From Iodidimonas nitroreducens (lineage in GTDB: Bacteria; Pseudomonadota; Alphaproteobacteria; Sphingomonadales; Rhodothalassiaceae), in contig BAYV01000007.1 of the NCBI GenBank assembly GCA_000710935.1, positions 1 through 64,000 of the forward strand: 64,000 nucleotides of DNA. Direction: 5' to 3'. The notes under the pieces are model-generated. The model made no database searches. It had not been told where the DNA came from and saw only the letters and a list, made by a program, of their open reading frames with translations. The translations under genes were made by a program, and so were the position numbers. Below are positions 40,666 through 43,133 of this stretch, piece after piece (position 1 is the stretch's first letter; every line of letters begins with the position of its first letter).

Positions 40666-42231
40666 ATGGCCGCATCAGTGATCATCATCGGCGCCGGGAT
40701 TGGCGGCTTGAGCGCGGCTTTGGTCCTCGCCTCCCGGGGCTATGCGGTCACCATTCTGGAACGCCAGCCCGTGGCGGGGGGCAAGATCCGCAGCCTTGAT
40801 GGCGGCGGGCGGCCCATCGATAGCGGCCCCACGGTCTTTACCCTGCGGGCGGTGTTCGATGAAATCTTTGCTTATGCGGGCTTATCTCTTGATGATCATC
40901 TCAGCCTTGAACCGGCTTCTGTTCTGGCCCGGCATTTCTGGTCGGGCGGGGCGCGGCTCGATCTTCATGCCGATCCCCAACGCACCTGCGATGCCATTGG
41001 CGATTTCGCGGGGGCCGCCGATGCCCGCGCCTATCAAGCCTTTGCTGCCCAATCAAAGCGCTGCTTTGAAACGCTGGATCACAGCTTCATGCGCCAACCC
41101 AAACCAAGCTTATCCGGGCTTATCGGGGCGGGATTGCACGGTGGGGCCAAGGGCATGGCCGATCTGCTGGCGATCTCGCCCTTTGCCCGCTATGGGGACA
41201 GTCTGGCCCGGCAATTTCGCGATCCCCGGCTGCAACAGCTTTTTGGCCGCTATGCCACCTATTGCGGGTCGTCGCCCTATGCCGCCCCGGCCACCCTGAT
41301 GCTGGTGGCCCATGCCGAACAAAAAGGCGTATGGCAGATCAAGGGCGGCATGGCGGCGCTGGCCCATGTCCTTGGCGAACGGGCCATCAAGGCGGGGGCC
41401 ATCTTCTGCCCGCACCATGAGGTCACGGCCATCCGCCCAAGGGGGCCGAAATCCAAAGGCGGGGGGGGCTATGAAATTCTCATCAACCATCAAGGATCGC
41501 AGCAGAGCATGACGGCGGATATGATCTTGTTCAATGGCGATAAAACAGCCCTGCAATCAGGTTATTTCGGAAACGAAATGAAAAAGGCTCTACCAAAGCT
41601 TGCGCCGGAAAAAGCCCGCGCCGGGCGATCTTTATCGGCGCTCACATGGTCGATGCTGGGGCGAATCGAGGGTGGTCCCCTCCATCATCATATGGTTTGT
41701 TTTTCCGATGATTATGGCCGCGAATTTGATCAGCTTTTCCGCCAGAAAGCCGTACCCCATGATCCAACGGTTTATCTGTGTGCGCAAGATCGCAGCCTGA
41801 GCGATGACCAGCCCACACATTCAAATAATGCGCATGGCAGCGAGCGGCTGTTCTGTCTGATCAATGCCCCGGCCAATGGCGATCAGAAAACCTATGATGA
41901 GGAGGAGATCAAAGGATGCGAAGAGCGGATGCGTCGCCGATTGGAAGCCTGTGGGCTGGAACTCAACAATCCCCAATGGGTGGAAACCACCAGCCCGCAG
42001 GATTTTGCGGCCCTTTATCCGGCCACCGGCGGGGCGCTTTATGGCCCGGTGTCTCATGGCTGGCGGGCCTCGTTCCAAAGGCCGGGGGTGAAAACGGCCT
42101 GTCCGGGGCTGTATCTGGCGGGGGGGAGCGTGCATCCGGGGCCGGGGGTGCCGATGGCCGCCCTTTCGGGGCTGATGGCGGCCAAAGCGCTGATCAGGGA
42201 TCACGAGGGCCGGGATTTGACCAGCCCCTGA
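40666..42231 (+). CDS. crtD: Methoxyneurosporene/hydroxycarotenoid 3,4-dehydrogenase CrtD
   Basis: 521 residues from MAASVIIIGAG (CAGGAG five bases before the ATG). N-terminal FAD fold GAGIGGLSAALVLASRG, then the desaturase pattern GGKIRSLDGGGRPIDSGPTVF; C-terminal flavin motif YLAGGSVHPGPGVPMAALSG. Belongs to the CrtI/CrtN desaturase family; assignment as CrtD rests on the crtC neighbour and CrtD-like segments. It would introduce the C3-C4 double bond of spheroidene- or spirilloxanthin-series carotenoids. The end overlaps crtC. Confidence 0.93.
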   Translation: MAASVIIIGAGIGGLSAALVLASRGYAVTILERQPVAGGKIRSLDGGGRPIDSGPTVFTLRAVFDEIFAYAGLSLDDHLSLEPASVLARHFWSGGARLDLHADPQRTCDAIGDFAGAADARAYQAFAAQSKRCFETLDHSFMRQPKPSLSGLIGAGLHGGAKGMADLLAISPFARYGDSLARQFRDPRLQQLFGRYATYCGSSPYAAPATLMLVAHAEQKGVWQIKGGMAALAHVLGERAIKAGAIFCPHHEVTAIRPRGPKSKGGGGYEILINHQGSQQSMTADMILFNGDKTALQSGYFGNEMKKALPKLAPEKARAGRSLSALTWSMLGRIEGGPLHHHMVCFSDDYGREFDQLFRQKAVPHDPTVYLCAQDRSLSDDQPTHSNNAHGSERLFCLINAPANGDQKTYDEEEIKGCEERMRRRLEACGLELNNPQWVETTSPQDFAALYPATGGALYGPVSHGWRASFQRPGVKTACPGLYLAGGSVHPGPGVPMAALSGLMAAKALIRDHEGRDLTSP

Positions 42232-43133
42232 AGGATGGCGGCTATCTGTGGTATTATTGCGATGCCTTGAGCGAAGATGGGCGCTATGGCCTTACCCTCA
42301 TCGTTTTTATCGGCAGTGTGTTCTCGCCCTATTATGCGTGGGCTGGCTGGCAGCGGCCGGAAAATCACTGCGCCTTTAACATTGCCCTTTATGATGGCAA
42401 AAAACGCTATTGGGCGATGACCGAACGCCGCGCTGACCGGCTGGAAACCAGCCCCCAATGCCTGCGCATCGATCAAAGCAGCCTGCGTTTCACCCCCACG
42501 GCCCTGATCGCCGATCTTCATGAAACCAGCACCCCATGGCGGCGGCCCATCCGGGGCCGGATCACCATTCCCCTGCCCGCATCCTTTGGGCCTTTTCATG
42601 ATCTTGATCCCCATGGCCGCCATCAATGGCGACCGCTCAATCCCCATATGCGGGTGAAAATCGAGATGGACGAACCCCGGATGCACTGGACCGGCCATGG
42701 CTATTGCGACATGAACCGGGGCACGGAACCTTTAGAGCGAGCCTTTCGCCAATGGCAATGGTCGCGCGCCCGGCTTGATCAGGAAAGCATTGTTTTCTAT
42801 GATCTTTTGCGCCGCGATGGCAGCCGTCACGCGCTCGCCCTGCGCTATCATGAAGATGGCAGCACCGAAACTTTTGCCCCACCGCCTTTAACCCGACTCC
42901 CCACCAGCGGCTGGCGGATGCGGCGGCTCACCCGCAGTGATCGGGGGGCTGCGGCCACCTGCCTGCGCACCCTTGAAGATTCGCCCTTCTACACCCGCTC
43001 GATCCTTGATGTGCCGCTTTTTGGCCAGCGGGCGATTGCCGTTCATGAAAGCCTTGATCTCGACCGGTTTCGATCACCCATCGTGCGGGCCATGCTGCCC
43101 TTTAGAATGCCGCGCGGGCAATGGTGGGGATGA
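42228..43133 (+). CDS. crtC: Acyclic carotenoid 1,2-hydratase (hydroxyneurosporene synthase)
   Basis: Adds water to the end of neurosporene or lycopene. The core GGYLWYYCDALSEDGRYGLTLI, FIGSVFSPYYAWAG and ENHCAFNIALYDGKKRYWAMTER is clear. No ATG/GTG/TTG lies at the expected place: the in-frame ATGs at 41916 and 41976 are deep inside crtD, and the next is a TTG at 42267 after conserved residues. A CTG at 42228-42230 overlaps the crtD stop as CTGA and is used here (301 residues). FDQP just before it also resembles the family N-terminus, so the true start could be further upstream. The 3' end overlaps the opposing 69-codon gene by 60 bases. Confidence 0.9.
   Translation: MKDGGYLWYYCDALSEDGRYGLTLIVFIGSVFSPYYAWAGWQRPENHCAFNIALYDGKKRYWAMTERRADRLETSPQCLRIDQSSLRFTPTALIADLHETSTPWRRPIRGRITIPLPASFGPFHDLDPHGRHQWRPLNPHMRVKIEMDEPRMHWTGHGYCDMNRGTEPLERAFRQWQWSRARLDQESIVFYDLLRRDGSRHALALRYHEDGSTETFAPPPLTRLPTSGWRMRRLTRSDRGAAATCLRTLEDSPFYTRSILDVPLFGQRAIAVHESLDLDRFRSPIVRAMLPFRMPRGQWWG

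Follow-up and report, generated by a model that had tools for sequence, protein, structure and literature searches.

The carotenoid hydratase gene crtC very probably starts inside crtD in photosynthetic Proteobacteria

The crtD-crtC junction

The window analyzed here is a stretch of 64,000 nucleotides from Iodidimonas nitroreducens (contig BAYV01000007.1), in which crtC follows crtD on the same strand. CrtD matches the NCBIfam model NF045637 with 607 bits, above the curated cutoff of 580, and its residues 5–512 are matched, residue 512 being the endpoint of the model. The crtC product is a predicted carotenoid 1,2-hydratase. It matches NF045922 (E 1.3e-78; 264 bits, curated cutoff 400), has no Pfam match at E 0.01, and contains all of the catalytic residues H236, W238, Y263 and D265, which are invariant in a 49-sequence alignment. 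The 278-position NF045922 model itself begins at residue 129 of the window CrtC (42300–43130), so that the first strand, which is conserved in the family, falls outside it. The features of the junction are as follows.

40666–42231, + strand: crtD, 1-hydroxycarotenoid 3,4-desaturase, 521 amino acids (NF045637 equivalog match)
41900–41907, + strand: Shine-Dalgarno sequence AGGAGGAG of crtC, within crtD (from the sequence; GGAG equally spaced in 66 relatives)
41916–43133, + strand: crtC, predicted carotenoid 1,2-hydratase, 405 amino acids (conserved ATG, stop-free frame, NF045922 core)
41916–42231, + strand: out-of-frame overlap of crtD and crtC, 316 nucleotides (coordinates of both frames; crtC-frame stops in relatives)
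41916–42206, + strand: N-terminal tail of CrtC, residues 1–97, predicted disordered, with no detectable residue selection
42207–42221, + strand: GPGFD, beginning of the conserved CrtC core, where constraint passes from the frame of crtD to that of crtC (phase analysis; invariant F101)
42228–42230, + strand: CTG proposed earlier as the crtC start, rejected as unconserved and 3′ of the constrained GPGFD
42267–42269, + strand: TTG, first canonical codon downstream; a start here would lose most of the first core β-strand (residues 110–119)

A sequence-only reading of the window had stated that crtC lacks a normal start near its conserved N-terminus. This is right, as ATG, GTG and TTG are all absent from the crtC frame between 41976 and TTG 42267, which falls within conserved GGYLWYYCDALSEDG. 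The same reading correctly placed a CTG at 42228–42230 over the crtD TGA at 42229–42231, inside the conserved segment GPGFDQPLKDGGYLWYYCDALSEDG, and its impression that the FDQP 5′ of this CTG is family-like agrees with the P-R-F-D conserved among relatives. It took the nearest upstream ATG to lie about 250 bases inside crtD. That codon, ATG 41976, does exist, but ATG 41916, a further 60 nucleotides 5′, has the strong ribosome binding site.

Conservation of the start signal within crtD

It is very probable that crtC has a canonical start after all, namely ATG 41916 with the AGGAGGAG ribosome binding site, about 100 codons inside crtD and in its -1 frame. Start-signal conservation, an open frame, a phase switch in codon constraint and predicted disorder argue for this position, and ATG 41916 would also be the start used in the cell and the main one of crtC. 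A start inside crtD had been raised earlier as a second possibility, and the evidence supports it at ATG 41916 rather than at 41976.

Relatives were compared at 73 loci, the window's included, in which crtD lies directly 5′ and crtC is in its -1 frame, and every in-frame start upstream of the crtC core was enumerated. Positions are counted in nucleotides from the Tyr codon of the motif GGYxWWY (GGYLWYY in the window, where ATG 41916 is at -327). A canonical start between -75 and 0 is absent in most of these 73 loci, and a near-cognate codon near the junction is also absent in many of them. Nearly every locus instead has an ATG around -321, usually with GGAG at a fixed spacing.

This ATG occupies the same crtD codon boundary in 72 of 77 overlap-type loci (94%), although photosynthesis clusters move between lineages and the loci share ancestry, so that locus counts are not independent. 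After a redundancy cut at 70% CrtD identity, it is found in 50 of 54 representatives. Elsewhere in crtD, the fraction of loci with an ATG in the -1 frame averages 0.4% over 505 columns, and the next-best column reaches 21%. The GGAG lies 12–9 nucleotides upstream of the conserved ATG in 66 loci, and a Shine-Dalgarno tetramer 5–13 nucleotides 5′ of the start is present in 94%, compared to a mean of 7%. In the window itself, AGGAGG occurs only 8 times on both strands of the 64 kb. The crtD codon before the start ends in A at 65 of 69 loci, compared to 11.4 ± 2.8 expected from the codon usage of each gene; the final A is kept although the codon stands for any of ten residues (Q, T, R, A, P, E, G, S, L, K). 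The downstream start signal of this long same-strand overlap is thus conserved beyond the needs of the upstream protein.

In 11 control loci, crtC starts separately, with the crtD stop before -34 or in a different frame. None of the 11 has the ATG (Fisher p 1.4e-10 against the overlap type, with counts that are not independent owing to shared ancestry). All eight plasmid records have it, these being from Novosphingobium, Methylobacterium, Sulfitobacter (two), Roseobacter, Thiodictyon, Roseinatronobacter and Tateyamaria. Among 21 class-level loci with an adjacent crtD that were fetched later, the ATG is present in 19; in the remaining two, Shine-Dalgarno and ATG are shifted, to -357 and -285. 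Where the start is not ATG, it is GTG (L016, L045) or TTG (L061), and all three have a Shine-Dalgarno sequence. The ATG of some Rhodobacterales, and of a few of the class-level loci, has a weak Shine-Dalgarno match or none. The start-less crtC arrangement is also found in two Rhodoplanes loci (L059, L086) that lack the internal signal; their only ATG, at -174, has no Shine-Dalgarno sequence. Both other genomes of the window's genus lack crtC.

Two arrangements stand apart. In four Sphingomonadales loci (L047, L070, L053, L072) crtC has no crtD upstream, and no obvious proximal ATG precedes PRFD there either. In one Caulobacteraceae metagenome-assembled genome (L042), crtD shares the crtC frame up to -87 as one long open frame, which is probably an assembly indel and otherwise an in-frame fusion. 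An in-frame CrtD-CrtC fusion was considered and rejected, an indel in this assembly being the simplest cause, and the locus was not used.

Coding constraint across the overlap and the alternative starts

Between the ATG and CrtD residue 512, the crtC frame of the relatives contains no stop in 7,285 overlap codons, while the same frame just upstream of the ATG contains 97 stops in 4,961 codons. Synonymous resampling expects 56 stops in the overlap. The same resampling also overpredicts stops in the upstream region (329 observed, 525 expected), and part of the depletion in the overlap is therefore general. The frame is nevertheless open beyond chance, with stops occurring in the upstream region and in 3 of 11 separate-start controls. 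Codon-position entropy at 64 loci follows the phase of crtD as far as -36 (CrtD residue 512) and that of crtC from -33, at the PRFD codons, onward, which means that crtC is translated from at least there, 5′ of the CTG. The crtD-frame stop lies at -14 in the window and at -20 in five loci; mostly it is found at +25, +49 or +55, inside crtC. CrtD is itself variable where the start lies, with a majority fraction of 0.41–0.49 for residues 406–445 compared to 0.76 for residues 446–511. The start is thus placed in a variable stretch of CrtD, 5′ of the conserved C-terminal part, into which it probably could not easily have been fitted.

AlphaFold2, run on 49 aligned long forms, gives a pLDDT below 50 for residues 1–32 and 34–92 and above 90 from about residue 101, with the first strand at residues 110–119. 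This model suggests that the ordered core begins at the conserved GPGFD. No selection at the residue level is seen in the tail, where the fourfold third-base entropy is 1.39 in the overlap compared to 1.36 upstream (p 0.54). This null result concerns the function of the tail and leaves the start unaffected. Since the tail shows no such selection, a shorter CrtC may be made besides the long form.

The sequence-only reading preferred initiation at CTG 42228 by ribosomes that terminate at the crtD TGA and then re-start. The CTG exactly overlaps this TGA, and CTGA occurs near the same place in three relatives whose crtD stops early (L008, L044, L060). However, a TGA of the upstream frame always yields NTG when read in the -1 frame; CTGA is thus one of four outcomes and carries no weight, and its recurrence in two crt pairs does not amount to a pattern. 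In the alignment of the junction with relatives, the CTG is neither conserved nor replaced by ATG or GTG at the same place, and near-cognate codons are lacking there in many relatives. The crtD stops range from -20 to +55 around the conserved Tyr codon and are mostly within crtC, whereas selection in the crtC frame already begins 5′ of the CTG, at GPRFD (GPGFD in the window). No Shine-Dalgarno sequence precedes CTG 42228, and the conserved Shine-Dalgarno and ATG make it unnecessary; a CTG start with re-starting ribosomes is therefore very unlikely. A non-AUG start at a fixed codon (GTC at -15 or GGA at -36) was also rejected, as no consistent codon is found among relatives.

A CrtD-CrtC fusion made by -1 ribosomal frameshifting close to the crtD 3′ end initially seemed a strong reading, given the lack of proximal starts and the sharp phase switch at CrtD residue 512. 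Every overlap-type locus has crtC in the -1 frame relative to crtD, and C-CCC-TGA in the window would permit slippage of tRNA-Pro. The internal Shine-Dalgarno and ATG, however, removed the need for a fusion product. A frameshift explains neither their conservation 321 nucleotides upstream nor their absence where crtC has its own start, and the junction has no conserved slippery heptamer or other nucleotide-level signal among relatives. The recoding literature checked does not mention one, and this reading is extremely improbable. Equally improbable is a CrtC that begins inside its core, for example at TTG 42267 or at the starts annotated in RefSeq. Most annotated crtC starts checked in RefSeq do sit there, and the NCBIfam model opens there too, at residue 129. 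However, F101, G109-Y110, W112, Y114 and D116 upstream are invariant and have crtC codon phase, and this region forms the first ordered β-strand, with a pLDDT above 90. Moreover, Prodigal, which permits a maximum same-strand overlap of 60 bp (PMC2848648), cannot call the long start.

The other crt pair of the sequence-only reading, crtE-crtF on the - strand, was described accurately, with CTG 39656–39654 and no canonical start up to TTG 39494. ATG, GTG and TTG are absent from an in-frame stop 54 nucleotides before the CTG to TTG 39494, which sits within the conserved CrtF N-terminus, and many relatives have ATG, often ATGA, at this junction. With no hidden upstream start, crtF falls outside the crtC explanation and may have either a CTG start or a sequence error.

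Published CrtC, annotation and meaning of the overlap

The deduced CrtC proteins of R. gelatinosus, T. roseopersicina, R. rubrum and Bradyrhizobium are 44 kDa, compared to 38 kDa in R. palustris (PMC4717167). The published catalytic residues, H239/W241/Y266/D268 in RgCrtC and H237/W239/D266 in TrCrtC (PMC4717167), differ by 1 to 3 from the window numbering counted from ATG 41916, and the published 44-kDa records thus seem to be counted from the long start. For Rhodopseudomonas, the short 38-kDa form is what its separate crtC start predicts. It has also been reported that the CrtC N-terminus is not conserved, that forms without the first 45 or 57 residues are fully active, and that Thiocapsa CrtC is clipped at S57/S58 in E. 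coli (PMC4717167). The Rubrivivax gelatinosus and Thiocapsa roseopersicina enzymes resemble that of the window in family, in 44-kDa length class and in their variable N-terminus, but the study treats the latter merely as variable and dispensable and mentions neither crtD nor any overlap. No report of the crtD-crtC overlap was found in the freely accessible literature searched; an earlier mention is possible in subscription papers, among them the one on the original R. capsulatus sequence.

In RefSeq, all seven annotated plasmid records start crtC 3′ of the conserved ATG, at -21 or between +24 and +117, and six of the seven start inside the core. These short starts are consistent with the Prodigal limit, and the truncation probably stems from the overlap limits of gene finders.

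Other overlaps in carotenoid gene clusters, crtI-crtB and crtY-crtI, likewise have the downstream start and ribosome binding site within the upstream gene, but they span 1–8 bp (PMC5989583) compared to about 300 nucleotides in a different frame for crtD-crtC. The antisense genes of E. coli O157:H7 (PMC9927249, PMC7103648) are also long alternative-frame coding sequences missed by annotation rules. Unlike them, the crtC overlap is on the same strand, makes up the 5′ portion of the gene for a well-known enzyme, and has a start signal conserved across several proteobacterial classes.

In the mechanism proposed here, ribosomes would bind an internal site on the crtD-crtC mRNA and produce a CrtC of 405 residues (about 45 kDa), in which a disordered tail of some 97 residues, encoded in the alternative frame of crtD, would precede the catalytic core beginning at GPGFD. 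Selection would retain the ATG, the ribosome binding site and the open frame, and not the residues of the tail, while the crtC start codon would impose Cys (or Trp) on CrtD. It is possible, though rather doubtful, that the internal start is kept because it is useful, either since the disordered tail has a cellular role, which may for example be to keep CrtC close to CrtD or to the membrane, or since initiation within a gene under translation sets the CrtC:CrtD ratio.

Two enzyme genes would thus share a conserved out-of-frame overlap of about 300 nucleotides across photosynthetic Proteobacteria, and one gene would determine a residue of the other through its start codon. The overlap would explain why present annotation cuts crtC inside its fold, and cloning or deleting crtC or crtD according to that annotation would yield a truncated CrtC or a damaged neighbor.
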